From positions 19,780 to 83,779 of IMG/VR virus record IMGVR_UViG_3300044961_000262: 64,000 nt of DNA; one strand, 5' to 3'. A model generated the notes under the pieces. The model was not told the origin of the DNA. It ran no database searches and worked only from the letters and a program-made list of their open reading frames with translations. Positions 3,974 through 64,000 of this stretch are shown here, piece after piece (the stretch's first letter is position 1; every line of letters starts with the position of its first letter). A program made the position numbers and the translations under genes. The stretch is from a virus.

Positions 3974-4261
3974 TTAATAAATTGGAAATGAATTAACTAT
4001 TACATCTTTCGGCATATTTTCAATTAATATATTATTTATAGGATCTTTCAAATGCCAATTTACTTCTTCTGGAATAGCCTGTCGCCAATCAGATTGATTA
4101 GCTTTACTTGTACCTCCTACTTCACTATAATATAAAGTATCGGAGCTATATTTACGTATTTTATAAATTTTTCCTATTGTTCTATTTGTAGATCCTTTTA
4201 AACCTATACATACAGCGTATCCGGGATATTCTATTCTTCCCCATATTAATTGTTTTTCCAT
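3974..4261 (-). CDS. Unknown small phage protein (95 aa)
   Basis: A beta-rich small protein with no family I can name. It reads as a compact domain (a GRIEYPGYAVCIG start, then charged strands). It is spaced 2 nt from both neighbours, so it belongs to the same operon. Many crAss-like and other Bacteroidota phages carry such small beta-barrel-like early proteins of unknown role. Confidence 0.55.
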   Translation of the reverse strand: MEKQLIWGRIEYPGYAVCIGLKGSTNRTIGKIYKIRKYSSDTLYYSEVGGTSKANQSDWRQAIPEEVNWHLKDPINNILIENMPKDVIVNSFPIY

Positions 4262-4263
4262 AA

Positions 4264-4746
4264 TTATTTCCAGTTAATTTTAGGACAGTAATTTTTATAC
4301 CAAGATTTACAATAATTTACAATTATATTATTAGATATTTTATCTTCTAAAGTATATTTTACATTTTTTTTAATCCATATTTCTCTAATAATTAAAATAC
4401 ATATTATAATTGATATTATTCCTCCTAATGTAGCAAGAGTTGAATTGTAATTATCGAAATTCAATGCCCATAAAATATAATGATATATTCCTATAATATA
4501 AAATATAATTATAGTTACAATTGTATATATTATTATACCTATACCAGTTCTTCCATCTCCTTTATGAAAACCGTCTTTAGTAATCATATTTACAATACTT
4601 ACAGGTAATCTTAAAATAAGATTAGGAATGAATAATATTATTGCCGTTACTAATTTCCAAAAAAAAGGGCATAAGTTTTCAGGTAATTTTGAATTGTATG
4701 TATAGTTATATAACCATACATACCATGATTTCGTTTTTAATTCCAT
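4264..4746 (-). CDS. Multi-pass membrane protein, unknown
   Basis: A 160-residue protein with at least three hydrophobic segments (about residues 28-52, 70-95 and 100-122) separated by short polar loops, so an inner-membrane protein. The C-terminal tail contains CKSWYKNYCPK, similar in pattern to the SKGWYKKYNPK segment near the N-terminus of the 13011-13505 protein, a shared short motif in otherwise unrelated proteins. An early membrane protein could act in superinfection exclusion or host takeover; this is inference. Confidence 0.55.
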   Translation of the reverse strand: MELKTKSWYVWLYNYTYNSKLPENLCPFFWKLVTAIILFIPNLILRLPVSIVNMITKDGFHKGDGRTGIGIIIYTIVTIIIFYIIGIYHYILWALNFDNYNSTLATLGGIISIIICILIIREIWIKKNVKYTLEDKISNNIIVNYCKSWYKNYCPKINWK

Positions 4747-5502: not shown

Positions 5503-5778
5503 TCATTTTATAATTCTTTTAATCGGTATAAAATATGCACTATCACCTGTTTTATCTTCACTACCTAATGCAAGAATAGCTTCTTCATGAAACCAATCTT
5601 CTTCCATATATTCTTGTGATTCAGGCCATTGTATTAAACAATATCCATTTTCAGTATGATCTAATATATCATTTATAATTTTTACTTTTTCATTATTTTC
5701 ATTATTTTCAGGATTTAATATATCAGATGTTGATTCTCTTATAAATCTTATTGCTGCTTCAAATTTTGTTTTTATCAT
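5503..5778 (-). CDS. Unknown small phage protein (91 aa)
   Basis: The C-terminal half (CLIQWPESQEYMEEDWF, then HEEAILALGSEDKTGDSAYF) is a pattern familiar from hypothetical proteins of gut Bacteroidota phages. Its function is not known to me. The N-terminal 40 residues are helical and Asn/Glu-rich. Adjacent genes are similarly small and cotranscribed. Confidence 0.6.
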   Translation of the reverse strand: MIKTKFEAAIRFIRESTSDILNPENNENNEKVKIINDILDHTENGYCLIQWPESQEYMEEDWFHEEAILALGSEDKTGDSAYFIPIKRIIK

Positions 5779-6590: not shown

Positions 6591-6606
6591 AGTTTTATTT
6601 TAAAGT

Positions 6607-6723
6607 TTATTTTAAAGAATTTAAATACTCGTACATTTCTTTTGTTTGGGCAAATTTGCAATTTGTAATTAGAAAATATACATCATCATAGCTTGGGTTT
6701 AATGATTTGTAATAATCTAACAT
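6607..6723 (-). CDS. Very small ORF (38 aa), possibly the tail of a decayed gene
   Basis: The protein-like sequence (LDYYKSLNPSYDDVYFLIT, then a basic/aromatic tail) stays open nine codons upstream of the only ATG without another start, as if the 5' part of a longer gene had been lost. It sits between the 5817-6590 gene and the cassette-like island. Could be a microprotein or a remnant; I cannot decide from the sequence. Confidence 0.3.
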   Translation of the reverse strand: MLDYYKSLNPSYDDVYFLITNCKFAQTKEMYEYLNSLK

Positions 6724-6800
6724 ATCCCGTGTCTGTGCTTTTGGATAATTTACTATTAATCAGCGTAAATTATTTTTTACGTCTATTGTTATGTGAAATT

Positions 6801-7112
6801 TCAGAACCACCCACAAGAAATCAATTCTACAATAGTTTTTTCACTATTAACGGTATCATATCGCAATATTTTCCATTTTTTTCCTAATGGTTTAGGTAAT
6901 GGGAATTTTAATGTTTTCCAATCTGCACTATTATTACTATTTGCAATGAAATTATTACAAACAGTAACATCACAATTATAAAAATTTTTTGGTATCTCTA
7001 TCTTAATTATTTTGCTTGGCTTCCTAAAGAAACTTCGCACAACATTGGTTTGTGGCAAGTGCGGCTGACGTGGTTTAACCAGATTTAGTAATTCTAATAA
7101 TCTTCTGTACAT
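6801..7112 (-). CDS. Unknown small protein in foreign-looking island (103 aa)
   Basis: Starts MYRRLLELLNLVKPRQPHLP and has a basic N-terminus followed by mixed alpha/beta sequence. It is flanked on both sides by non-coding spacers containing short inverted repeats (for example CGTAAA/TTTACG around 6762-6780). Base composition around its start is GC-richer than the surrounding arm. No family recognised. It belongs to a run of tiny genes separated by 55-170-nt spacers, unlike the overlapping genes elsewhere on this strand. Confidence 0.45.
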   Translation of the reverse strand: MYRRLLELLNLVKPRQPHLPQTNVVRSFFRKPSKIIKIEIPKNFYNCDVTVCNNFIANSNNSADWKTLKFPLPKPLGKKWKILRYDTVNSEKTIVELISCGWF

Positions 7113-7171
7113 ATTTTCAAAATTTGTGTTTCAAAATCTGCACCTGACCACAAGTTAAGTGCCGTTAGTGA

Positions 7172-7453
7172 TCATTTCTTTTTACGTTCTAACCATTCTA
7201 TAAAATATTTCATCGCTGCCCATCCTTCTGCATCGTAATGAAAAGGTGTGTTCCAATCAGACATTTCTTCATCTCTGTATTGTTCTAACAAAGATTTAAT
7301 TTCCGCAAGCAACGAACCGCTAACAGGTTGTTGGCGTAATGTTACTTCCATCTGTCCAATTAAGGTTAGTAAATCATCGTGCTGCCTACCTCTTGCAGTT
7401 TTTACTTGCCCAGTTGCTACCCATTTTCTAAGTATTTCCAAATGTTCTTTCAT
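7172..7453 (-). CDS. Unknown small helical protein in island (93 aa)
   Basis: A helical protein with codon use unlike its neighbours (Arg CGT/CGC/CGG, Gln CAG), suggesting recent transfer. Residues 20-35 (TARGRQHDDLLTLIGQ) and the C-terminal FHYDAEGWAAMKYFIEWLER look like a compact helical domain. No function recognised. Downstream spacer 7113-7171 and upstream spacer 7454-7527 are non-coding. Confidence 0.5.
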   Translation of the reverse strand: MKEHLEILRKWVATGQVKTARGRQHDDLLTLIGQMEVTLRQQPVSGSLLAEIKSLLEQYRDEEMSDWNTPFHYDAEGWAAMKYFIEWLERKKK

Positions 7454-7527
7454 TCTATTGTAATTTATCGTTAATAATTCACACTACTCCAACCACCAAC
7501 ACATTAGGTGTAAGTGCTATGACACTG

Positions 7528-7749
7528 CTACCAAGCATCATCTGTAATTCTAACATTTAATTTTATTTTACCATCAGACCATCCAATATCGTGATTTTCT
7601 TTTTTAACCTCACATCTTTGAGTATCTATTGGGTAAGGGTATGCACGTTGCATAAGTTCATTTTTTGGAACTTCTTTTTCCACTTCAATTTCAAAAATAA
7701 AATCATCAGGAATAGATGAAATTAAATCTTTTAATTCTTTGATTGTCAT
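7528..7749 (-). CDS. Unknown small protein in island (73 aa)
   Basis: Opens MTIKELKDLISSIPDDFIFE, the pattern of many small phage and mobile-element proteins of unknown function (an amphipathic helix followed by acidic strands). The upstream spacer (7750-7804) carries a clear stem-loop with GCACCA/TGGTGC arms. Ends in TAG. Cotranscription with its neighbours is likely but not shown. Confidence 0.5.
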   Translation of the reverse strand: MTIKELKDLISSIPDDFIFEIEVEKEVPKNELMQRAYPYPIDTQRCEVKKENHDIGWSDGKIKLNVRITDDAW

Positions 7750-7751
7750 TT

Positions 7752-7802
7752 TCGTTTAATTTACCGCACCAGCCACTAACAGCGGTTTGGTGCTATTATT
7801 TT
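7752..7802 (-). repeat. Stem-loop spacer between island genes
   Basis: Contains outer arms GCACCA and TGGTGC with an inner CCGC/GTGG pairing (one wobble) around a TGTTA loop. No T-run follows, so it does not look like an intrinsic terminator. It resembles the secondary structure of recombination sites more than a transcription signal, but integron attC core sequences are not intact here. Confidence 0.45.
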
Positions 7803-7804
7803 AC

Positions 7805-7903
7805 CTAACTTTCTTCTTGCGGATAAGAACTAATATCGGCAAAAATTCTTTTACCATCAGTGCTTACTCTTAATCTTTCTTCGCTTGGAATATGTATTTC
7901 CAT
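7805..7903 (-). CDS. Microprotein ORF in island (32 aa)
   Basis: MEIHIPSEERLRVSTDGKRI, then an acidic tail ending in TAG. It is well spaced between two inverted-repeat spacers, as each other gene in this island is, which is the main support. The sequence reads like a small beta-hairpin protein. Function unknown. Confidence 0.4.
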   Translation of the reverse strand: MEIHIPSEERLRVSTDGKRIFADISSYPQEES

Positions 7904-7944
7904 TTTCTTATTTATTTAAGTTGTTAAAAATTCATTTAAAAAGG

Positions 7945-8062
7945 GCGGCGTATAACGGTGGCTAAAATAAATTGTAGCATTTGTTTTTAGATTGAAGTTT
8001 TAGATCTCCAAAACCCTAACTTCTTTAGCCGTAAAAAATTAGCGACAAAGCTATACAACCTT
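7945..8062 (-). repeat. Imperfect inverted repeat spacer with attC-like layout
   Basis: On the minus strand this spacer starts with GTATAGC and, further in, CGCTAA, and ends with TTAGCCACC followed by GTTATAC. The two ends are imperfectly complementary over about 18 nt, with about 70 nt of further self-complementary sequence (AACTTC/GAAGTT type) between them. That is the geometry of an integron attC site placed just after a gene. The core triplets are only partly matched (GTATAGC instead of a clean R'' box), so identity is uncertain. Confidence 0.3.
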
Positions 8063-8075
8063 CCAACTATCAATT

Positions 8076-8315
8076 CTAACTAAATATTTCCTTTATATAA
8101 ATTTTCCATAAATCTTCAATTCCACCATCATTATCTCTACCTCTTTCAACACGTCTATCCATAAAATACATTTTACCTTTATATAACCTCACATTAGATT
8201 GAATTGAAGATGTATTCTTCGTAATCTATATAATGAAATTAACTGTATCATTATTAACATCAGATATATTCAAGTTTTCTTGGTTTTCTTTGAAACTTTT
8301 TATTTTATTTTTCAT
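8076..8315 (-). pseudogene. Small ORF interrupted by an in-frame TAG
   Basis: The ATG at 8315 opens 29 codons, then an in-frame TAG at 8226-8228. The same frame continues for 49 sense codons (ending GGIEDLWKIYIKEIFS) to a second TAG at 8076-8078. The protein-like composition on both sides suggests one gene broken by a nonsense change. Readthrough or amber suppression cannot be excluded, but other genes here use TAG as a normal stop. The downstream part contains ATGs (MYFMDRRVERGR) that might be used on their own. Confidence 0.4.
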
Positions 8316-8339
8316 TTTTAATTTTATTTACTAATAATA

Positions 8340-8368
8340 AAAAAAAGAAGTATCCGAAGATACTTCTT
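8340..8368 (-). terminator. Intrinsic terminator of the tmRNA gene
   Basis: Perfect 9-bp stem AGAAGTATC/GATACTTCT (8346-8354 and 8359-8367) closed by a TTCG tetraloop on the minus strand and followed by a run of T. It lies about 45 nt past the mature tmRNA 3' end, so it ends the tmRNA precursor. Confidence 0.85.
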
Positions 8369-8412
8369 TTCCACCTTTTAATCTAATCAAGCATATGACA
8401 AAATTTGATTTG

Positions 8413-8790
8413 TGGAGATGTGGGGAATTGAACCCCAGTCCAGATAACTGCTATATAACAACTTTTATTACATGCTTAAATCTAATATTTCTATTTGATT
8501 AGTATTAAGCTTAACTGAAATTAAGCTTCACCAGTTAATCTTTAATATTATTATACTCCTAATAGATTAACAAACTTGGGAGTGAAAATTAAGCAGCTAA
8601 AACTACTTCTTTTTCTGCAACAGGAGCAAAAGCAATTACCATTGCTTCTACTTTATCAGCAAAAGTCCTAGACTCGTCTGATATATTGTTATTGTTTGCA
8701 TTTGTTTTTTGATAGTAATTTAGATGTAATCTATCATCCATCGCATGATTGTTATAAGGCTAAACGTTACTGTCAAATCCTGTCATCCCC
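8413..8790 (-). ncRNA. ssrA: tmRNA (SsrA RNA) with a predicted 36-residue tag
   Basis: The 5' end GGGGATGACAGGATTTGACA and the 3' end pair as a 7-bp acceptor stem with a G3-U70 pair, the alanine identity element. The T-arm is TGGGG/CCCCA with TTCAATT loop, and CCA is not encoded. The conserved TAAGCATGTA of the 3' H2/H5 side is present. Pseudoknot 1 can be drawn (GATG/CATC plus GATAG/CTATC). Exactly 11 nt after it, as in E. coli, lies the resume codon GCA at 8697-8699. The tag frame runs ANNNNISDESRTF... to ...EKEVVLAA, then TAA at 8589-8591: 36 residues, far longer than the usual ~8-15, but still with an LAA degron end. An 8-bp hairpin AAGCTTAA/TTAAGCTT lies in the 3' pseudoknot region. Expected role: trans-translation and ribosome rescue during infection. 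Confidence 0.93.
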
Positions 8791-8797
8791 TAAATAG

Positions 8798-9064
8798 CTA
8801 ATCTTTATCAGCTATTTCTAATTTCTGCAAAGCTAATTTTTTTTCTTCAATTCTTTGTTTTAAAACTTCATCAAATTGTTCTACAAAATTTGTAAATTTT
8901 TCATACAAATAGTAGTGCATTTCGTTTTTTTTTAAACAAATTTTACGAAATTTAATTAACTCGTCATCTGTTAATTCCGATATTGGTTTTAACGAACCGT
9001 CTTTCATTTTCCAAATGAGTTCTTTTTCATCTGTTTTGAGCATTATTTTGTTAACTGGTGTCAT
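8798..9064 (-). CDS. Unknown small protein of a WKM-G-L paralog family (88 aa)
   Basis: Residues 14-44 (ELIWKMKDGSLKPISELTDD, then ELIKFRKIC) follow the same pattern as the start of the 14621-14896 protein (VYWKMRNGNLINVDDMDNNH). The two are likely diverged paralogs of a small family common in phages, function unknown. A helical, charged C-terminus follows. The gene ends 7 nt before the tmRNA 5' end, so the tmRNA may be cotranscribed and released by RNase P. Confidence 0.6.
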   Translation of the reverse strand: MTPVNKIMLKTDEKELIWKMKDGSLKPISELTDDELIKFRKICLKKNEMHYYLYEKFTNFVEQFDEVLKQRIEEKKLALQKLEIADKD

Positions 9065-9086
9065 ATGTTTATTTATTAAAAAATGA

Positions 9087-9116
9087 ATAAAAAGAAGAGT
9101 CTTTCGACTCTTCTCT
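9087..9116 (-). terminator. Intrinsic terminator after the SSB-like gene
   Basis: Perfect 8-bp stem GAAGAGTC/GACTCTTC (9094-9101 and 9106-9113) with a 4-nt loop, followed on the minus strand by TTTTTATT. Located 18 nt past the stop of the 9134-9604 gene, it separates that gene from the 8798-9064 gene. Confidence 0.8.
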
Positions 9117-9133
9117 TTAAATTAAACTAAAAA

Positions 9134-9604
9134 TTAAAATACAGGAGCTTCTTCTACTTGAGATACTACAGTTGTATTTACTGGTTCTACAACTTCGTGT
9201 CCACGTGATTTAAATGCAGATTTAACTGTAGATTCCCAAGCTGGAGAAGCTGTATCTCCGAACACAACCGTAGTATAAGTATTTACAGCGCGAATTCCGC
9301 CATCTTTAGATTCGATGTCGTACTCTCTTACATTACGATTTTCAATTTTACCTTCAAAATAACCTCCCGCTTGAGGATTTCTTTCATTGAAAATAGGTGC
9401 TGAATAACCTGGATCTGGTTGACCAAGATAATTTAGTTCATACTGATTTACAGATGTTGAACGGCATTGGCTCAATGGTTTAGGCATTGGTCCAAATTGA
9501 GTGTTTAACATAGTACGTTCAGTAAATGTAACTGTTTTGTAGTTACGTCCGTTTTTGTCTTGTTTGATAGCTGATTCAGCTGTTTTTACGATAATGTGAT
9601 TCAT
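9134..9604 (-). CDS. Possible single-stranded DNA-binding protein
   Basis: A 156-residue beta-rich protein with an acidic, Val-rich tail ending EEAPVF. Strand-like segments (IKQDKNGRNYKTVTFTE near the N-terminus, EGKIENRNVREYDIESKDGG and NTYTTVVFGD in the middle) resemble an OB fold, and the acidic tail is in keeping with phage SSBs. Codon choice is GC-richer and more regular than in its neighbours, and the gene is monocistronic between two terminators, both suggesting strong expression. No tight SSB signature is present, so the call is by overall look and context. Confidence 0.45.
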   Translation of the reverse strand: MNHIIVKTAESAIKQDKNGRNYKTVTFTERTMLNTQFGPMPKPLSQCRSTSVNQYELNYLGQPDPGYSAPIFNERNPQAGGYFEGKIENRNVREYDIESKDGGIRAVNTYTTVVFGDTASPAWESTVKSAFKSRGHEVVEPVNTTVVSQVEEAPVF

Positions 9605-9696
9605 TTTGTTTTAAATTATTTAAAGCGATACTAAAATGCGTAATCTTGTCGTTGAAACGCTTCACGCCCACATAGGTTATACTGATTGGGTCCAGT

Positions 9697-9752
9697 TAAA
9701 AAAGAAAAAGTTACAGTAAAACTTGGCAAATGCTGTAACTTTTCTTTTAAAA
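9697..9752 (-). terminator. Intrinsic terminator after the 9769-10086 gene
   Basis: Ten-base-pair stem AAAGTTACAG/CTGTAACTTT (9707-9716 and 9733-9742) with a 16-nt loop, followed on the minus strand by a T-rich run (TTTTTCTTTTTT). It isolates the SSB-like gene from the cluster to its right. The remaining 9605-9696 is a leader of about 90 nt that should hold the promoter of the SSB-like gene, but no clear TAnnTTTG box is visible. Confidence 0.8.
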
Positions 9753-9768
9753 ATAATACAAAGAACGA

Positions 9769-10086
9769 TTAGAATAATTCTGCTTGAAGAGCTATTAGAT
9801 TGTTATAATCTACTTCTGCATTTTCCAAATTGTATTTTGCTGCCAAAATAACTGAAGAATTAAAATTTAAATCAGATTTAGCACGGTCTAATACTGCTTT
9901 AGCTAAACTTACAGCTTTTTTAGCTTGAAGAATATCGTGTTGAATTTGAATACGAGCTTCTTCTACTTTTTCAAGAACTAATTCTTGATTTTTAGTTTCG
10001 TTAGATTTTGAAAGAAGTGATTGATACAAACACGTTTTTGTTGATTCAGTTTCTTCAGAAACTACTGTTTTTTTTGAAGTTGTCAT
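9769..10086 (-). CDS. Small coiled-coil protein (105 aa)
   Basis: Residues about 30-100 form one long amphipathic helix rich in Ala/Lys/Glu (ARIQIQHDILQAKKAVSLAK). The N-terminal 25 residues are Thr/Ser-rich and polar. Its start overlaps the stop of the upstream gene by 4 nt (coupling). Codon choice is like that of the SSB-like gene, suggesting good expression. Function unknown. Confidence 0.55.
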   Translation of the reverse strand: MTTSKKTVVSEETESTKTCLYQSLLSKSNETKNQELVLEKVEEARIQIQHDILQAKKAVSLAKAVLDRAKSDLNFNSSVILAAKYNLENAEVDYNNLIALQAELF

Positions 10087-10289
10087 TGTTTTGATTTAAC
10101 TTTAATTACTTGATAACCCGGTACTGTTCTTTTAAATCCACTTCGTACCGGTTCAAAAGTAGATCTTGTTGTTTGGTGAGAGATTGTTTTTTTTTGAATA
10201 ATTTTTTCCTTATTATCTTTTTTAAAATTAAGTGTTATCGGAACTTTTTTCATTGCATCTTTGATGTCTTTTGCTATTTGCGATTTCAT
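10083..10289 (-). CDS. Small basic protein (68 aa)
   Basis: A strongly basic small protein (about one third Lys/Arg), starting MKSQIAKDIKDAMKK, with a Ser/Thr/Arg-rich C-terminal half. Nucleic-acid binding is plausible from charge only. It overlaps the upstream membrane-protein gene by 62 nt and the downstream gene by 4 nt. Confidence 0.45.
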   Translation of the reverse strand: MKSQIAKDIKDAMKKVPITLNFKKDNKEKIIQKKTISHQTTRSTFEPVRSGFKRTVPGYQVIKVKSKQ

Positions 10290-10443
10290 TTTGATATAAT
10301 AATAAAAATGTAATAAATAAAATAAAAAATAATAACGATACTATCCATGCTATAATTTCTTTTAAATTTATATTAATATACACTAATAATAGTGCTATTA
10401 TAAAAAATATTATAGAAATAGATAAATAAAATAATTTTACCAT
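10228..10443 (-). CDS. Small two-span membrane protein (71 aa)
   Basis: Two long hydrophobic stretches (about residues 4-24 and 28-50) and a polar C-terminal tail of about 20 residues, so an inner-membrane protein with both ends on one side. The start codon shares one base with the stop of the upstream gene (TAATG). Unknown role; early phage membrane microproteins often modify host envelope functions. Confidence 0.5.
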   Translation of the reverse strand: MVKLFYLSISIIFFIIALLLVYININLKEIIAWIVSLLFFILFITFLLLYQNEIANSKRHQRCNEKSSDNT

Positions 10444-10577
10444 TAAAATATTATATTTATTGCAAATGGACCAATGAAAATAAATAAAGTGTTTTCATCA
10501 AGATCAATAGCTGCTCCTAAAACAAACATTGCTGCAATGTCTATTTTAACTTTAGGAATTAGATTTTTTTTGTTCAT
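10443..10577 (-). CDS. Small hydrophobic protein (44 aa)
   Basis: MNKKNLIPKVKIDIAAMFVL, then a second hydrophobic run at the C-terminus (LFIFIGPFAINIIF). It is below the usual size cut-off, but it starts inside the 3' end of the upstream gene (26-nt overlap), and its TAA overlaps the next ATG by one base. That perfect tiling argues for a real gene. Probably membrane-associated; function unknown. Confidence 0.55.
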   Translation of the reverse strand: MNKKNLIPKVKIDIAAMFVLGAAIDLDENTLFIFIGPFAINIIF

Positions 10578-10845
10578 TTTGATTAAGAGTTACATGTTGT
10601 GGTTTAAATGCAGATAAATCTTCTATTTTTTTAGAAAGTTCTGTCATTTGTCCTGATTTAAGTGAAATAAAGTAAACATTTTTAGATTTGAAAAGTAGAT
10701 AACCGTATTCTATTAATTTATTAATTAAAACTTTAGATTCTTTACTGAAATTTTCAATATTTACGGTATTTCCGTAATTCATTTTAAGAAATTCAGCTGC
10801 GGATTTCATACTAGTCATTTTACAAAAAGATTCTTCGTTTATCAT
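10552..10845 (-). CDS. Unknown small protein, possible winged-helix (97 aa)
   Basis: Helix-rich N-terminus, then KVLINKLIEYGYLLFKSKNVYF, which looks like a recognition helix and beta wing. The polar C-terminal tail is likely disordered. Its start overlaps the upstream stop by 4 nt. A DNA-binding regulator is possible; this is inference from the secondary-structure pattern only. Confidence 0.45.
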   Translation of the reverse strand: MINEESFCKMTSMKSAAEFLKMNYGNTVNIENFSKESKVLINKLIEYGYLLFKSKNVYFISLKSGQMTELSKKIEDLSAFKPQHVTLNQNEQKKSNS

Positions 10846-11108
10846 AATGGTCTATGAATTATTTCTTTATTTATTAATTCTCCAGTATGCTTATCAATAC
10901 ATGTAATATATTGAATGTAGAATTTGTACCCGTTACTTCTAGACTTTTTAATTCTAGTTTTAACGTGTGTAAATTTAGGATTAGAATTTTTTTCTTTCTT
11001 AGGTTTAACTATAGGTTTTTGTTCAACGTCTTCTATAACGCTAAGAGTTACTTTATAATCTCCATTTTGATTTTTTTTGGTAAGTAATCTATGAATTGTT
11101 TTTAACAT
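10842..11108 (-). CDS. Small basic protein (88 aa)
   Basis: A very Lys-rich central region (PIVKPKKEKNSNPKFTHVKT) followed by a strand-rich end with CIDKHTGELINKEIIHR. Possibly nucleic-acid or ribosome binding by charge. It follows the frameshifted small gene at 11111-11238 with a 2-nt gap and overlaps the next gene by 4 nt. No family recognised. Confidence 0.5.
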   Translation of the reverse strand: MLKTIHRLLTKKNQNGDYKVTLSVIEDVEQKPIVKPKKEKNSNPKFTHVKTRIKKSRSNGYKFYIQYITCIDKHTGELINKEIIHRPL

Positions 11109-11110
11109 AA

Positions 11111-11238
11111 TTATGATATTAATAAAATTTCGATAATATTTTTTTTTTGACGATCTAATTTTCTAATAACTGAAATTACAATATTGCATTTATCATCATT
11201 TGATAAAGTATTTTTATTCTATCTAACTGTATTTTCAT
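11111..11238 (-). pseudogene. Small gene split by an apparent -1 frameshift at an A-run
   Basis: The ATG at 11238 overlaps the upstream TGA as ATGA, a strong coupling signal, but the frame ends after 20 codons. A -1 slip at the run of five A in codons 8-10 joins it to a frame that stays open to 11111 and gives a well-formed 42-residue protein (MKIQLDRIKNTLSNDDKCN...). It could be a programmed slip, a decayed gene, or one missing base in a homopolymer. The joined product reads more naturally than either part. Confidence 0.4.
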
Positions 11239-11615
11239 TTATATGTAACTAAAATTGTCCAACATTTAAATTCTTTAGAGTATTGTAAAAACAGTTTTCT
11301 TTCTTCATGTTCGTAAATATTTTTAGATACATATTTCCATCTAGTTTCTTCAATAATAGAAATTGCTTCATTTTCAGTTATATCTAAAGTAAATAAAATA
11401 CCTATACAATAATTTTGTTTACTCATATAATAAACATGAAGTACGGAGTTTTTAAATGTAGTTAAACACTTAGTTCCATCATCTAATTTAATTACTTCTA
11501 CAGAATATCCGTTAGATTCTAGTTCTTTCCTAACTTCACTTGCGCTCATACCTAAGTCTTGAGCATTTAACAATCCTCCAAAGAGAATTGATACGATTAA
11601 TAATAATTTTTTCAT
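11235..11615 (-). CDS. Secreted/periplasmic protein with signal peptide (126 aa)
   Basis: Residues 1-19 (MKKLLLIVSILFGGLLNAQ) are a textbook signal peptide: a Lys-Lys start, a hydrophobic core, and an A-Q end of the kind very common in flavobacterial exported proteins. There is no lipobox cysteine, so it is predicted to be released in the periplasm. The mature part is alpha/beta with one Cys pair possible. Exported early phage proteins often block superinfecting phages or alter the envelope; that role is inference. It starts 3 nt after a small membrane-protein gene and is followed by an ATGA-coupled gene. Confidence 0.65.
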   Translation of the reverse strand: MKKLLLIVSILFGGLLNAQDLGMSASEVRKELESNGYSVEVIKLDDGTKCLTTFKNSVLHVYYMSKQNYCIGILFTLDITENEAISIIEETRWKYVSKNIYEHEERKLFLQYSKEFKCWTILVTYK

Positions 11616-11618
11616 GAT

Positions 11619-11717
11619 TTAATTTTTTAATTCTTGTAAAACAGCTACAATAACCAATGCCAATATTGCTAATACCGAAAATGATACTAATAATATTTCT
11701 TTAATTTTTCTTTTCAT
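11619..11717 (-). CDS. Single-span membrane microprotein (32 aa)
   Basis: MKRKIKEILLVSFSVLAILA, then more hydrophobic residues and a charged end (LQELKN): a basic N-terminus, one 20-residue hydrophobic helix, and a short polar tail. Its stop lies 3 nt before the ATG of the secreted protein gene. Too short for standard ORF calling, but shape and packing support it. Confidence 0.5.
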   Translation of the reverse strand: MKRKIKEILLVSFSVLAILALVIVAVLQELKN

Positions 11718-11731
11718 TTTTTATTTAAAGA

Positions 11732-11963
11732 TTAATAATTTAAAAATAATAAACTTGACCCATCTATTGTGAGAAAATTGTCGAAACATTTTTCAGGGAA
11801 GCAGTAACAATATTTCTTAAAATCCTATTTGTTTTAAAAAAGTATTATTAGCTGTTACAATAACTATACTCTTAATTATTTTGTAAGTAAAGCTTTGATA
11901 ATGTAATTTTGCAATTTTGCAAAAATTAATAAACTCACCGGTTGTCATTTTTACATTTTCCAT
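11732..11963 (-). pseudogene. Small gene split by an apparent +1 frameshift at TTT-TAA
   Basis: The ATG at 11963 opens 48 codons ending ...LKQIGF then TAA at 11817-11819. Skipping one T at the TTTT/TAA junction (+1) enters a frame that continues KKYCYCFPEKCFDNF to a stop at 11732, giving one coherent protein of about 77 residues. The second frame has no start codon of its own. A slippery UUU directly before a stop codon is the arrangement used by +1 programmed frameshifts such as prfB. Gene decay or a one-base homopolymer error are equally possible. Confidence 0.45.
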
Positions 11964-11975
11964 GTTTTTAATTGA

Positions 11976-12161
11976 TTAAAGGTAATAAATTTGATTTCTT
12001 TTTTTCTTTTTTTTAGTTTTAATTAATACTACACTAATTATAGCTATTAAAGCAGTTAGATAACAAACTGATGATACGATTATTTCTGTTTTTAAAAAAA
12101 GTGGAACGAATCCAAAAAATAATCCGCAGATTAAAATTAGTAGTTTTTCTTTTCTAGTCAT
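11976..12161 (-). CDS. Small two-span membrane protein (61 aa)
   Basis: Two hydrophobic segments (about residues 6-24 and 28-48) and a strongly basic tail (KTKKKKKRNQ), so both ends are predicted to face the cytoplasm. It is the first coding gene after the large structured RNA to its right. Unknown role. Confidence 0.5.
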   Translation of the reverse strand: MTRKEKLLILICGLFFGFVPLFLKTEIIVSSVCYLTALIAIISVVLIKTKKKKKRNQIYYL

Positions 12162-12202
12162 ATTATTGTTGATTAAAATTAGGTTTTAGATTTCTTTATT
12201 TT

Positions 12203-12232
12203 TAATAAAAAGCAAGAGGTAGTTCTCTTGCT
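12203..12232 (-). terminator. Intrinsic terminator of the large structured RNA
   Basis: Perfect 8-bp stem AGCAAGAG/CTCTTGCT (12211-12232) with a 6-nt loop, followed on the minus strand by TTTTTATT. It sits 40-70 nt upstream of the next gene start and closes the folded region 12203-12728, fixing the direction of that RNA as leftward. Confidence 0.85.
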
Positions 12233-12728
12233 AGTTTGTAAATACTTTACATATTGTAATAGTATTTACATTTTTTAACACAAACACCATCAACATTTGC
12301 AACTGTTGATATATAAATTTATTCTCCACTTACCTTTAAAAGTTTCGTAGTTTCTAAAACTATTTTATATTCGTATTTGTGTTGTAGTAAGTAAATAGCT
12401 GACAGTGCAGTTCATTTAAACCAATTTGTCCTATTAATAAGGATGGTCACTTTTACTTACCAAAACCTAAAATCTACTTAGGTAAGGATAAAATTGTGTT
12501 GTCAAGTCATTAATTAAAAGGATATACCAAGCATCATACTTAACTTGCTATTTGATACGTCAGCCGTTTAATTACTAATTCCTTTCGGAACAACACAATT
12601 TTAAATTGTTAGGTAAACTGTTTGTAGTCACGAATACTACCAGCTCAAGTATGTAGGGTTGAATACCTACTATGCCCAGTTAATTTTTTTCATCCTAACA
12701 ATTTATTACAACTCCTTAATTGTAATTT
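12203..12728 (-). ncRNA. Large structured non-coding RNA (~525 nt), class not recognised
   Basis: No ORF fills this interval on either strand, but it can pair extensively. A 13-bp helix joins 12490-12502 and 12590-12602. An 11-bp helix joins 12603-12613 and 12694-12704. A 9-bp helix joins 12387-12395 and 12452-12460. A 10-bp hairpin lies at 12237-12270, a TTCC-GAAA-GGAA hairpin (GNRA loop on the minus strand) at 12579-12590, a 7-bp hairpin near 12287-12310, and further short hairpins at 12620-12670. It ends in a strong terminator and begins right after the stop of the 12730-13002 gene. Size and multi-branched layout resemble the big ornate RNAs of phages (GOLLD and ROOL type), but I recognise no conserved sequence of those classes. 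Confidence 0.75.
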
Positions 12729-12729
12729 T

Positions 12730-13002
12730 TTATTCAATTTCACTAGCTTTTTCAACAGCCAATTCTAATTCATCTACTGTTTCTTTAAACCATTTTGAAT
12801 ATTTTAAAATTTCTTTAAAATAATCATCATCTTTTAAAGATTTAATTTTTGTAATAGTACTTGCATAATCTATAGCGGGTATTTTTTGACCTATTTGTAT
12901 TTCTTTAGGTTTATTTCCCGTTACTGCATTAACTATTTCTTTAATTTCATTTTCGGTAGCTTTAATTAAAAAGCCTTCATTTGTTTTTGCTATTACTTCC
13001 AT
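12730..13002 (-). CDS. Unknown small phage protein (90 aa)
   Basis: MEVIAKTNEGFLIKATENEI then a helical remainder with an acidic C-terminus. A pattern often seen in small Bacteroidota phage proteins (beta hairpin plus helices); function unknown. It is followed immediately by the large structured RNA, which may be cut from the same transcript. Confidence 0.6.
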   Translation of the reverse strand: MEVIAKTNEGFLIKATENEIKEIVNAVTGNKPKEIQIGQKIPAIDYASTITKIKSLKDDDYFKEILKYSKWFKETVDELELAVEKASEIE

Positions 13003-13010
13003 AATTTTAA

Positions 13011-13505
13011 TTAGTTTTTAAATATTTCTTTAATTTTTTTATTACTCACTGAATTAGACAAAGGTAACACATTTTTATCCGGTTTAATTTCTATCCATTG
13101 AGATTTTTCTAATCTGCTAAATTCAGATAAACAATATCTTACAGCAGCTTCATTTATATCCCATTCAGGAAATACTTCATCTTTTTTTGGATTTATCCAA
13201 CCATTTTGATTAGTATAATATCCATATTTCCAACAATTGTGTGGTTTGATTGCTTCAAAAAAATCAGTAATAGTTCTTGCGTTACCTGTTAATGGTATTC
13301 TACTCATTTGACTAACTAATAAATAAGCTATTCTGTTTTTCTTTTGTTCTAAAGAATCACTTTCTAAACAACCTAAATAACCATCAGCTTGAATAAGTAT
13401 TTCTAAATCATCCCAAATAGTTTTTCTTTTAGTAGATTTAGGATTGTATTTTTTATACCATCCTTTACTGTAAAGCACAATGTGTTGTAATGTGAATTTT
13501 TCCAT
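13011..13505 (-). CDS. Unknown phage protein (164 aa)
   Basis: A helical protein beginning with a conserved-looking segment (LQHIVLYSKGWYKKYNPKS, then TIWDDLEILIQADGY) found in several gut-phage hypothetical proteins. The WYKKYNPK element recurs at the C-terminus of the 4264-4746 membrane protein. No catalytic residues recognised. Lies 8 nt upstream of the next gene and 5 nt after the preceding stop, so it is in one operon with both. Confidence 0.6.
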   Translation of the reverse strand: MEKFTLQHIVLYSKGWYKKYNPKSTKRKTIWDDLEILIQADGYLGCLESDSLEQKKNRIAYLLVSQMSRIPLTGNARTITDFFEAIKPHNCWKYGYYTNQNGWINPKKDEVFPEWDINEAAVRYCLSEFSRLEKSQWIEIKPDKNVLPLSNSVSNKKIKEIFKN

Positions 13506-13510
13506 AATTA

Positions 13511-14248
13511 TTATTTTAAATTATTTTCGATCCATTCTTTTGGTATATTAACACTGTTATAATAACCATCTCTACCATAATATAAAGTGTCTTTTTCATA
13601 TTGATAAATTAATTCAATAACTTCATCTCTACTCCAACTCTCTTTTACACTTGAAATATTAATAGTGTTATCTGGATTTATTTTTAATCTTATATCAATA
13701 GTAGATTCACCATCAGATAATCCATAATTACCAACTGCATATTCTTCATATTCAACCATTACATCAGTAATAATATTACCTTTGTTATATTCATAAATAT
13801 AATAGGCAATAAATAATTGTGGTATTTGAGGTAACTTAAACAATTTTGGTAGTTTTATATTTTCTGATTTACTACCAAACATATTTGTATCAAAACTATC
13901 AATACCATAAATTGAATTCGTAGTTAAAGAACTATCAGTTGTAGCTATTACTTTTTTGCAAAAATCTTTTTGTGTTGCTAAACCATTTAAAGAATCCGCT
14001 AACCAAATATCATCACCTGTAACATCATTATCATAAGAAGATTTTACTTGCATTATATTATCTTCATTATATAATACCCAATCTCCTTCTTTAATTTCAT
14101 CATCAGATAAAATGTAAAGATGTTGATTAGTCCATGTATTACTTGGTGAATTTTGATTTTGTAATCCTCCTATTTCAAAACTTGTGTCCAAACAAATATT
14201 ACTTGATTTATCAGTAGGTAACATAATTATTTTACAGTGTTTTTTCAT
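13511..14248 (-). CDS. Unknown phage protein (245 aa)
   Basis: The first half is beta-rich with the segment LYILSDDEIKEGDWVLYNED. The second half has PQLFIAYYIYEYNKGNIITD and SWSRDEVIELIYQYEKD. These are hallmarks of a widespread hypothetical protein of Bacteroidota phages, whose role is not known to me. It is the first gene downstream of the 14275-14620 folded RNA, so it may be translated from a transcript with a long structured leader. Confidence 0.6.
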   Translation of the reverse strand: MKKHCKIIMLPTDKSSNICLDTSFEIGGLQNQNSPSNTWTNQHLYILSDDEIKEGDWVLYNEDNIMQVKSSYDNDVTGDDIWLADSLNGLATQKDFCKKVIATTDSSLTTNSIYGIDSFDTNMFGSKSENIKLPKLFKLPQIPQLFIAYYIYEYNKGNIITDVMVEYEEYAVGNYGLSDGESTIDIRLKINPDNTINISSVKESWSRDEVIELIYQYEKDTLYYGRDGYYNSVNIPKEWIENNLK

Positions 14249-14274
14249 AATTGTTTTTTTTTTGAGTTAATTAG

Positions 14275-14620
14275 TAAATTTTACCCATCTGCATTTATAG
14301 AGGCTTTGGACTCTCAATGATTAATCATTGGCTGCATTAATAAATCAGTAAACAATGGCGCAATCTTCGTCAAGACCGCTTATTTTCATTGTTTACCTAC
14401 CTGTTTGTAGATGGTTCTGCCATCGCAACATTAACTTTCATTAAGGAGCTACCTTAATTACTCGAAGGTCTTCTTCAAGTTTACTCGTAGAGCTGTTTTC
14501 CTTGCGCTAGGTTTTACAGATACTTGGATTACATGAAAATGCCATGTAGCAGGAACAATTAAATCCATACCCTATTCCTACTTTAAGGTATTTAAGACGG
14601 TTTAACTCACCGACAGCTTT
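14275..14620 (-). ncRNA. Structured non-coding RNA (~345 nt), class not recognised
   Basis: The interval has no ORF, is GC-richer than flanking genes, and is full of pairings: a 10-bp helix 14348-14357 with 14387-14396 enclosing an 8-bp stem-loop 14360-14379, and hairpins at 14315-14330 (perfect palindrome), 14410-14424, 14442-14456, 14461-14479 and 14500-14511. A nested pair of stems lies at 14526-14566 (GGATT/AATCC outside ACATG/CATGT). Two stems keep pairing only with G-U pairs on the minus strand (GCGGTCTT/AAGATTGC and CTTGAAG/CTTCGAG), so the RNA is leftward. I see no group I, RNase P or tmRNA core. It could be a free RNA or the leader of the 13511-14248 gene. Confidence 0.7.
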
Positions 14621-14896
14621 TTAATAAATATCTATTTCACAAGCATCAAATCCACAACAATATTCTCCTAAATGCTCTTCACCACAATTAGGACAAGTTT
14701 GTGAATTATTAAAATCTTGTGCAATATCACCTTTCAGTTTAAATTTAGTTACAGACTTACTATTATTCTGTTGTAACTTTTGGATATTGCGTAATAGCAT
14801 CTTAAAAGCATTTCTAACATGGTTATTATCCATATCATCAACATTTATAAGATTGCCATTACGCATTTTCCAATAGACAGGCGAATTATCCTTCAT
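14621..14896 (-). CDS. Small protein with WKM-G-L segment and zinc-ribbon-like tail (91 aa)
   Basis: N-terminal VYWKMRNGNLINVDDMDNNH matches the pattern of the 8798-9064 protein; these two look like paralogs. Its C-terminal 25 residues add TCPNCGEEHLGEYCCGFDAC, whose Cys spacing suggests one zinc ion. Overlaps the upstream gene by 11 nt. Function unknown; the zinc tail may bind nucleic acid or a partner protein. Confidence 0.6.
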   Translation of the reverse strand: MKDNSPVYWKMRNGNLINVDDMDNNHVRNAFKMLLRNIQKLQQNNSKSVTKFKLKGDIAQDFNNSQTCPNCGEEHLGEYCCGFDACEIDIY

Positions 14897-15498: not shown

Positions 15499-15894
15499 CT
15501 ACACTATTTCTTTAACAATAGGAGCAACATTCATATACCTAATTTTAGGTCTACGATTGTTATTCCTTGCTACAGCTTCAATTTCCTTATTACTAAGGTT
15601 ATTATCGCCATAGCTTCTTTCTAATTCATACTGATATACATCTTCAAGATAGCCTTTTTCTTGTTGATTCATATAGTTAATGAATTTTTCAGCATCAGAA
15701 TCACGAATTAGATATAGAAATTTATTTTCTCCATCTTCTTCGTAAACTGTTCTTCCTTCATTTAATCCCCAAAATGAACACATAATATATGGAGGTTCAT
15801 CATTAGGAAATGTATGTTTGTGGATAATAGTATATCCTTTTACTTTTTGTCCAACATACGGAAATAACAAAAAGAGTTCTCTTGATTTGTTCAT
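15499..15894 (-). CDS. Unknown phage protein (131 aa)
   Basis: Beta-rich first half (VGQKVKGYTIIHKHTFPNDE, MCSFWGLNEGRTVYEEDG) and a helical, charged second half. No family recognised. It stands alone between two terminators, so it is an independent early transcript. Ends in TAG. Confidence 0.55.
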   Translation of the reverse strand: MNKSRELFLLFPYVGQKVKGYTIIHKHTFPNDEPPYIMCSFWGLNEGRTVYEEDGENKFLYLIRDSDAEKFINYMNQQEKGYLEDVYQYELERSYGDNNLSNKEIEAVARNNNRRPKIRYMNVAPIVKEIV

Positions 15895-16102
15895 TTTAAT
15901 ATTTTTTTTGAGTTTGAGCTACCATTTATTTTAATTCTTTGGGAACATTAAGAATTTGTTTAAGTGTAAAAACAAAAAACCTTACTAAGTACGAAACTTT
16001 TCAGGTTTTATGACAAATCCGCGTGATTTGTTCAGACACGCTCATAATCAACAAGTTACATTGTTGAATTTAAAGTTTTACTTTAATTTTTATATTAAAC
16101 CA
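15895..16102 (-). other. Non-coding structured interval upstream of the 15499-15894 gene
   Basis: No ORF. On the minus strand, downstream of the repeat palindrome, there are hairpins TTAAAGT/ACTTTAA (about 16068-16084), CAACA/TGTTG (about 16048-16065), GCGTG/CACGC with an alternative ACAAAT/ATTTGT pairing (about 16011-16040), then a terminator at 15966-16009. The last 65 nt before the 15894 start are A-rich leader. Confidence 0.5.
15966..16009 (-). terminator. Probable intrinsic terminator of the first leftward transcript
   Basis: Seven-base-pair stem AAAACCT/AGGTTTT (15976-15982 with 16003-16009), 20-nt loop, followed on the minus strand by TTTTTTGTTTTT. It ends the transcript that starts with the 16211-16549 gene, about 200 nt beyond its stop. 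Confidence 0.6.
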
Positions 16103-16198
16103 GTTAGCAAGTTTAGCAAATTTAGCAATATTAGTAAGTACGAATAGTTAGCAACATTATCTGAAGACAATGTGCTAACTATGCTAACAATGCTAAAC
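16103..16198. repeat. Palindromic array of 9-bp repeats
   Basis: TTAGCAA occurs at 16104, 16113 and 16122, with the variant TTAGTAA at 16131, exactly 9 bp apart, and once more at 16148. The reverse form TGCTAA follows at 16173, 16182 and 16191, also 9 bp apart. The two halves face each other around 16160, so the whole forms a ~95-bp imperfect palindrome with a perfect 9-bp core stem (ATAGTTAGC/GCTAACTAT) and an inner ACATT/AATGT pairing. Candidates: replication origin iterons, a multi-site operator, or a structured RNA, since it is probably transcribed leftward as 3' UTR. Confidence 0.8.
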
Positions 16199-63472: not shown

Positions 63473-64000
63473 ATGAGCTGCAAACCAACATATAAAGGAA
63501 TAAGATATAATTCTTTAGAAGAATTGTATAAAAGTGTTAATACTATAACATCTGAACAAAAATATAAAGCTATACAGCTTTATTCTGACTATGTAAATAA
63601 TACTGGTAGAAAAGATATAGAAGGATTTAAAAAGTTTGTAAATAAAAATTTTTCTAATAATGAAGTAAATCAAGGATTAAAAATAATAGATATACTTCAA
63701 TCTGATAAAGCAAAACAAGTATTTGCTAAAGGAGAAAAAAATGGTTGGGATTTAACTAAAATACTTACAGAATTAGGTGTATCTAAACAACAACAAGAGT
63801 TGATTGATGTAAGTAAATTAGATAATAAAAATAAAATAGCAGGTAAAAAATTAAGTATTGTTGCAGAAAGAAAAAAACTTGCAACAATAAAAGATTTAGA
63901 AAATTCACAATTAATAAAAAATATTAGAGTTGATAAATCTCAATCTAAAGATATTAAACCTAATCAGGCTGATAAAAATTTGGCATCTATAATGTTATAT
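63473..64000 (+). CDS. Unknown cargo-region protein, partial (continues past window)
   Basis: An ATG at 63473, 2 nt after the peptidase stop, opens a frame to the window end (176 codons). It starts MSCKPTYKGIRYNSLEELYK, is helical and basic, and has no recognised motif. The opening Y-K-G-I-R/Y-x-S-L-E-E-L resembles short leaders of other large phage cargo proteins. The length is unknown because the window ends. Confidence 0.55.
   Translation, partial: MSCKPTYKGIRYNSLEELYKSVNTITSEQKYKAIQLYSDYVNNTGRKDIEGFKKFVNKNFSNNEVNQGLKIIDILQSDKAKQVFAKGEKNGWDLTKILTELGVSKQQQELIDVSKLDNKNKIAGKKLSIVAERKKLATIKDLENSQLIKNIRVDKSQSKDIKPNQADKNLASIMLY

Follow-up and report, generated by a model that had tools for sequence, protein, structure and literature searches.

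GOLLD and ROOL RNAs are carried by phages or prophages, are often found near tRNA islands and, in the account given in PMC12286853, form nanocages (PMC12286853). Among the papers listed by searches of an open-licence library, none dealt with a structured RNA in crAss-like phages. These phages are among the most abundant human gut viruses. Here we analyzed a 64,000-nt stretch of DNA (the window) that forms part of an 83,779-base virus record (G000; IMG/VR IMGVR_UViG_3300044961_000262). The capsid protein of G000 matches the Crassvirus capsid family (E 3e-70), while the search with its large terminase gave 157 phage records, every one at <60% identity, the 12 listed being mostly crAss-like at 32-34%. 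As the capsid match is to Crassvirus and terminase identity to the matches listed is 32-34%, G000 is, judged from these proteins, a crAss-like phage distant from the named crAss-like phages. A first-pass annotation of the window had proposed a large non-coding RNA in a stretch of approximately 525 nt; the analysis below indicates that a conserved RNA, read leftward, is almost certainly real.

The RNA occupies positions 12203-12728 on the minus strand and is approximately 520 nt long, with a putative 5' end near 12728 and a putative 3' end near 12203. It lies between the stop of a leftward 90-aa gene (12730-13002, minus strand) and a leftward terminator-like site (12232-12211). As the first-pass annotation had stated, there is no substantial ORF between these two boundaries: the longest ORF wholly inside the interval encodes 32 aa from a GTG start (12231-12329, minus strand), on which ground a protein-coding reading was rejected, and two more ORFs, of 54 and 21 aa, extend across the 5' boundary of the interval. 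Between 12100 and 14700, two terminator-like sites were found versus 0.4 (sd 0.7) in shuffles; promoter sites of the sigma-70-like type, the one type scanned, were not above shuffles (14 versus 17.6). The 90-aa gene, which belongs to no recognised family, sits directly upstream of the RNA and is its most informative neighbour, although the first-pass annotation had overlooked it. Its product has no PHROGs match and no significant family match, with the best Pfam match (E 0.0048) weak and below the cut-off, and a weak match in PADLOC (E 0.0075). As the predicted structure is also poor (pLDDT 48.6), a partner role, or any function, for the 90-aa protein has no support. Among eight neighbouring proteins there was no convincing defence-related protein, two giving weak matches (E 0.004-0.008).

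A search with the 90-aa protein returned one locus, L002, on an 85,621-base IMG/VR record of a crAss-like phage. At L002 the protein is 88% identical in amino acid sequence (4001-4270), and the gene is directly followed by an RNA of approximately 420 nt in which the parts come in the same order and the tips are short. Over the gene, 254/270 nt are identical (dN 0.044 and dS 0.096 over codons 1-77), and the L002 copy contains an in-frame TAA after codon 77, which may be a sequencing error. The L002 RNA also holds a 21-aa frame that shares FIYQQLQML with the 32-aa ORF of the window; the DNA is near-identical there, and the start and end of the two frames differ.

Folded as the minus strand, 12203-12728 has a minimum free energy of -130.4 kcal/mol versus a shuffle mean of -97.7 kcal/mol (sd 5.5; z -5.93), and none of 100 dinucleotide shuffles folded as well; the plus strand gave a z of -4.10. 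The RNA of L002 folds with a z of -7.21, and the P4 domain alone gave -3.95 in the window and -5.50 in L002. A background of 98 same-length folds sampled in the window (49 positions, both strands, eight shuffles each) had a mean excess over shuffles of -5.6 kcal/mol (sd 7.1, best -23.6) versus -32.9 kcal/mol for the RNA interval, which thus has the greatest excess among the folds sampled. Elsewhere in the window, 15601-16126 also folds much better than its shuffles, with an excess of -23.6 kcal/mol on one strand and -21.2 kcal/mol on the other; this stretch is partly the gene at 15499-15894 and partly a largely noncoding part beyond it, and contains repeated TTAGCAA-like units.

The helices described by the first-pass annotation were close to those measured. 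Where it gave perfect helices of 13, 11, 10 and 9 bp, we found perfect inverted repeats of 14 bp (12489-12502/12590-12603), 12 bp (12602-12613/12694-12705) and 10 bp (12237-12246/12261-12270), a helix of 11 pairs that includes one G-U, and a terminator stem of eight pairs; the inverted-repeat search as a whole returned 25 pairs of repeats in this AT-rich DNA. The GNRA-capped stem that it had named (UUCC-GAAA-GGAA) is present in the sequence, but the probability of its four pairs is only 0.04-0.27, as helix P2 takes up part of the stem, and L002 has a different hairpin at this position. Overall, the RNA is mainly a series of stem domains set side by side, with branching inside the P4 domain, rather than a single closed fold with many branches. 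Loop-loop pairing was not above shuffles, the best being matched by 47% of 200 loop shuffles for the window and 16% for L002. In both phages, the 5' arm of P2 has a second potential partner in the 5' arm of P4 (9 bp; 12377-12385 with 12590-12598), which makes an alternative fold possible. A search of the phage's own genome for antisense matches to the RNA gave no long match, the longest being 13 nt.

To compare the window with L002, helices were anchored by hand, and the pair table from MAFFT was set aside because the variable tips misalign the whole-RNA alignment. Seven helices are pairable in both sequences: H0 (9 pairs), P1 (12), P2 (13), P3 (10), P4 (11), P5 (7) and the terminator (8). In unconstrained folding, P1-P5 and the terminator have mean pair probabilities of 0.77-1.00 in both sequences. 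The first-pass annotation had named compensatory changes in homologues, together with folding against shuffles (above) and a search of Rfam (below), as checks on the RNA, and one homologue with such changes is now at hand. Across the 46 pairs of P1-P4, which carry 12 substitutions, 37 are unchanged, six changed on one side with pairing kept, three changed on both sides and none is broken. When the substitutions were placed at random (five and seven per side), approximately 9.1 pairs broke on average and none of 200,000 runs left every pair intact; the runs that broke none numbered 59/200,000 for P1 alone and 576/200,000 for P2-P4 alone. As this test rests on two sequences and the helix arms were picked for their pairing, the evidence for covariation is limited to one comparison between two members. 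The preservation of P1-P4 pairs in L002 despite the in-frame stop in its gene suggests selection on the RNA itself. The shared helices include four wobble pairs in the window and five in L002, each of which would turn into an A-C mismatch if the plus strand were the RNA, and the terminator has the matching orientation; this favours the single leftward RNA that had been proposed.

From its 5' end, the RNA (all parts on the minus strand) begins with the hairpin H0 (12705-12726), whose arms are identical in both phages and whose last base is common with P1; its mean pair probability is 0.90 in the window versus 0.01 in L002, the sequence of which favours a competing fold. The P1 domain (12602-12705) consists of a 12-pair base helix (12694-12705/12602-12613) and a variable tip, and its base helix differs from that of L002 by eight substitutions, with three pairs changed on both sides, two on one side and none broken. 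P2 (12491-12601) likewise has a variable tip on a 13-pair base helix, which shows two one-sided changes, no broken pair and mean pair probabilities of 0.96 in the window and 0.92 in L002. A conserved linker, J2/3 (12462-12490; UAUCCUUACCUAAGUAGAUUUUAGGUUUU), can pair locally as a hairpin or with the 5' arm of P3, one of the six pairs of the latter being broken in L002. The P3 domain (12386-12461) has a 10-pair base helix with one one-sided change and none broken, and a tip of 56 nt in the window versus 8 nt in L002. P4 (12277-12383) has an 11-pair base helix that closes the branched region and differs by one change, U-G to C-G, again with none broken; one of the eight pairs of its inner helix P4b is unpaired in both sequences. 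Within P4 lies the P5 hairpin (12289-12310; loop GUUGCAAA), identical in both phages and with pair probabilities of 0.98 and 0.99. The stretch that separates P4 from the terminator forms P6 (12237-12270) in the window, a simple hairpin of 10+5 pairs; L002 has a different, longer domain instead. The RNA ends in an intrinsic terminator (12207-12232), the hairpin of which is identical in both phages and consists of the stem at 12232-12211 followed by a T-run. The distal parts of P1, P2 and P3 differ between the phages in both sequence and length, and as the DNA of the adjacent gene is so nearly identical, the differences between the tips probably arose through replacement and not through gradual drift.

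Scans of IMG/VR placed the RNA only on the L002 contig. A search with nhmmer of 114 of 123 loci (L001, L002 and L035-L041 being set apart) returned L006, which is on the same contig as L002, followed by L009 at E 0.0072, with a profile that could miss relatives of the 5' half because its MAFFT alignment misplaces that half. The L009 match was rejected as a GGTAAGT-repeat-rich stretch beside a different phage gene. A search with a capsid alignment returned 25 loci. The L002 RNA was then run against the full length of the 24 records besides that of L002, most of which are fragments; four had matches at E<=1, all just 14-26 nt long. With a covariance model of P4-P5, strong matches among 31 records were confined to the two members, although 13/31 had something at E<=1; the next best, in G002 (E 0.018), lies, as judged by eye, in an open frame. 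Applied to 70 loci, the same model recovered the window together with four matches at E 0.9-3.9. In phages, the RNA gave only short matches, with E of at least 0.1, among the records listed (20/65 and 20/45), and the 90-aa protein had no match; no match was found in plasmids, and a pattern scan of a genome collection gave 25 matches, none of which had E <1 by nhmmer. In two overlapping draws of 395 genomes each, from the phyla of a Flavobacterium and a Bacteroidaceae genome, matches at E<=0.001 occurred in 18 and 22 genomes, with at most two candidates scored per genome; these matches spanned 22-77 query bases and were judged to be AT-rich chance. In two Bacteroidaceae loci, L114 (6090-6150) and L122 (3700-3750), the linker motif CTTACTACAACACAAA is immediately adjacent to a terminator-like hairpin of the other strand, and neither site contains an Rfam RNA at gathering score. 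An antisense relation to a host RNA at these sites was judged to be probably chance, as the motif had served as the search pattern.

The two phages that carry the RNA are only distantly related, their proteins being 33% identical for the terminase, 29% for the capsid and 28% for the 774-aa protein that follows the terminase. At the RNA locus, however, their DNA matches piecewise from the gene to the terminator: 92% at 12696-13044, which includes the gene, 78% at 12274-12396 and 97% at 12208-12239, the terminator. In a comparison limited to ORFs of at least 60 aa at E<=1e-5 and to blastn at E<=1e-3, no match between the window and L002 is listed from 6591 to 12207 or from 13045 up to 20256. As the gene product is 88% identical in amino acid sequence versus 33% for the terminase and 29% for the capsid, the gene, RNA and terminator appear, from this pattern of identity, to be passed as a single unit from one distant crAss-like phage to another. 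The phages also have three protein segments of 64-108 residues in common (72-91% identity), from 61580 to the end of the window at 64000, one of these right-end genes having a weak peptidoglycan-binding match below the cut-off, and a 91-aa protein (5503-5778) is 59% identical to the L002 phage over 90 residues. Exchange is thus not special to the gene-RNA unit, and the shared stretches suggest gene exchange between two phages that perhaps have a common host.

Across the whole window, Rfam 15 at its gathering threshold identified only a tmRNA at 8410-8790, and no family was reached in the RNA interval, in agreement with its first-pass designation as an unrecognised class. A cmscan of 11700-14700 at E<=5 listed four matches, none of them GOLLD, ROOL or OLE; the sole match touching the interval was to nse_sRNA on the other strand at chance level (19.7 bits versus a cut-off of 75; E 4.1). 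At E<=0.5, the L002 locus gave two weak snoRNA matches, both outside the RNA. Neither ARAGORN nor Rfam found a tRNA in the window, and Rfam gave no match of any kind in the other 19.8 kb of G000 (L041), while the L002 record has one tRNA approximately 69 kb from its RNA. PF00078, the reverse transcriptase family expected as partner of a retron or DRT-type ncRNA, was present in neither of the two records, which are possibly incomplete, and in 3/14 control genomes.

The first-pass annotation had placed the RNA next to the tmRNA, which in fact lies 3.4 kb away on the same strand, separated from it by 11 leftward ORFs (40 aa or longer, some overlapping). As the 85.6-kb record of the homologue, which may be incomplete, contains no tmRNA at the Rfam threshold, adjacency to a tmRNA is not common to both members. 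The tmRNA itself is a full-length phage tmRNA (minus strand; 92.2 bits in Rfam) that ARAGORN does not report, and an open frame inside it ends ...VVLAA. On the other side of the 90-aa gene, a second noncoding structured stretch (14249-14620; 372 nt; z -3.4) has on its 3' side a twister-P1 ribozyme candidate (14281-14343, minus strand) that falls short of the family cut-off (60.3 versus 67.2 bits). Of this stretch, 56 nt match the crAss phages cr7_1 and cr124_1 (Suoliviridae) at 82%, and no match to it was found in the L002 record.

The reading that we favour, at about even odds, is that the two RNAs represent a new, small and unclassified family of structured crAss-like phage RNA, probably a trans-acting scaffold with exchangeable tips; a trans-acting role taken by itself we hold slightly more tentatively. 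Transcription would run leftward, with the RNA forming either the 3' part of the 90-aa gene's transcript or a separate transcript, and would stop at the strong terminator. The base helices P1-P4, the linkers and the P5 hairpin would form a fixed frame on which helix tips are replaced between phages. Protected by the terminator, the RNA may accumulate, possibly after cleavage from the mRNA. In the infected cell it could then serve as a trans-acting scaffold, perhaps bound by the 90-aa protein, and use its exchangeable tips to contact targets of the host or of the phage. A fuller version, in which the 90-aa protein and the fixed frame make up a mobile phage ribonucleoprotein and the exchanged tips set what the particle binds in the host, seems unlikely.

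The main rival, which accounts for much of the same evidence and which we regard as possible but less likely, is a large structured 3' UTR acting in cis, which would guard the 90-aa mRNA from 3' exonucleases, tune its decay, or both, the RNA itself being targetless. That the RNA begins right at the gene stop, ends in a terminator and accompanies the gene fits this explanation, as does the outcome of the searches for a trans target, which yielded none. However, a plain terminator hairpin would suffice for the end of an mRNA, yet several more stem domains and linkers have been kept, and the base helices of L002 are intact where the gene is interrupted, an argument that weakens if the stop is a sequencing error. 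These two points are what favour an RNA acting on its own.

A less probable explanation, which we doubt, is that the RNA is a counter-defence decoy or sponge. It would imitate or soak up either a host RNA or a defence protein that senses RNA, its tips following changing targets. A conserved frame with replaced tips would be expected of such an RNA, and the right-end stretches common to both phages, with their one weak peptidoglycan-binding match, perhaps point to a shared host; the eight neighbouring proteins, on the other hand, offered nothing convincing in the way of defence. An RNA-only nanocage or multimer of the GOLLD or ROOL kind is very unlikely. The first-pass annotation had seen a resemblance to these RNAs, and the size, the phage origin and the many long helices are compatible with it, but size and origin are all that the likeness amounts to, given that neither model matched at E<=5, that no tRNA was found in the window and that loop-loop pairing is not above shuffles, and the L002 RNA is just approximately 420 nt with short tips. 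That there is no RNA gene, only chance inverted repeats of the kind that AT-rich intergenic DNA yields in number, is hardly credible, as the fold exceeds both dinucleotide shuffles and the sampled rest of the window and the P1-P4 pairs have been kept through 12 substitutions. An RNA that accompanies a small gene as one unit, with constant base helices and swapped tips, would offer a clean system for probing the roles of large phage RNAs, in which the exchange itself tells frame from cargo.

Among described RNAs, GOLLD is similar in being large and phage-borne, in having one conserved and one less conserved part and in having no function described in the relevant part of PMC12286853. It differs in that many GOLLD RNAs exceed 800 nt and are often near tRNA islands (PMC12286853), versus approximately 520 nt and no tRNA found in the window here, and in that its covariance model has no match at this locus at E<=5. 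GOLLD assembles into a 14-mer nanocage. ROOL is closer in size, the solved ROOL being 659 nt, and shares the phage origin, the many helices and, in the same part of that source, the lack of a described function (PMC12286853). Its model also has no match here, and ROOL is described there with multiple pseudoknots (PMC12286853); the best loop-loop pairing of the present RNA does not rise above shuffles. OLE is likewise a large ornate RNA and is known to act together with partner proteins; it is a class of approximately 600 nt from extremophilic or anaerobic Gram-positive bacteria, and its model gave no match at this locus. As a self-contained and horizontally exchanged unit in a phage genome, the gene with its RNA also resembles a phage moron. 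Morons usually bring their own promoter and a protein cargo, whereas here the scan for sigma-70-like sites gave no support for a promoter and the structured RNA makes up over half of the unit.
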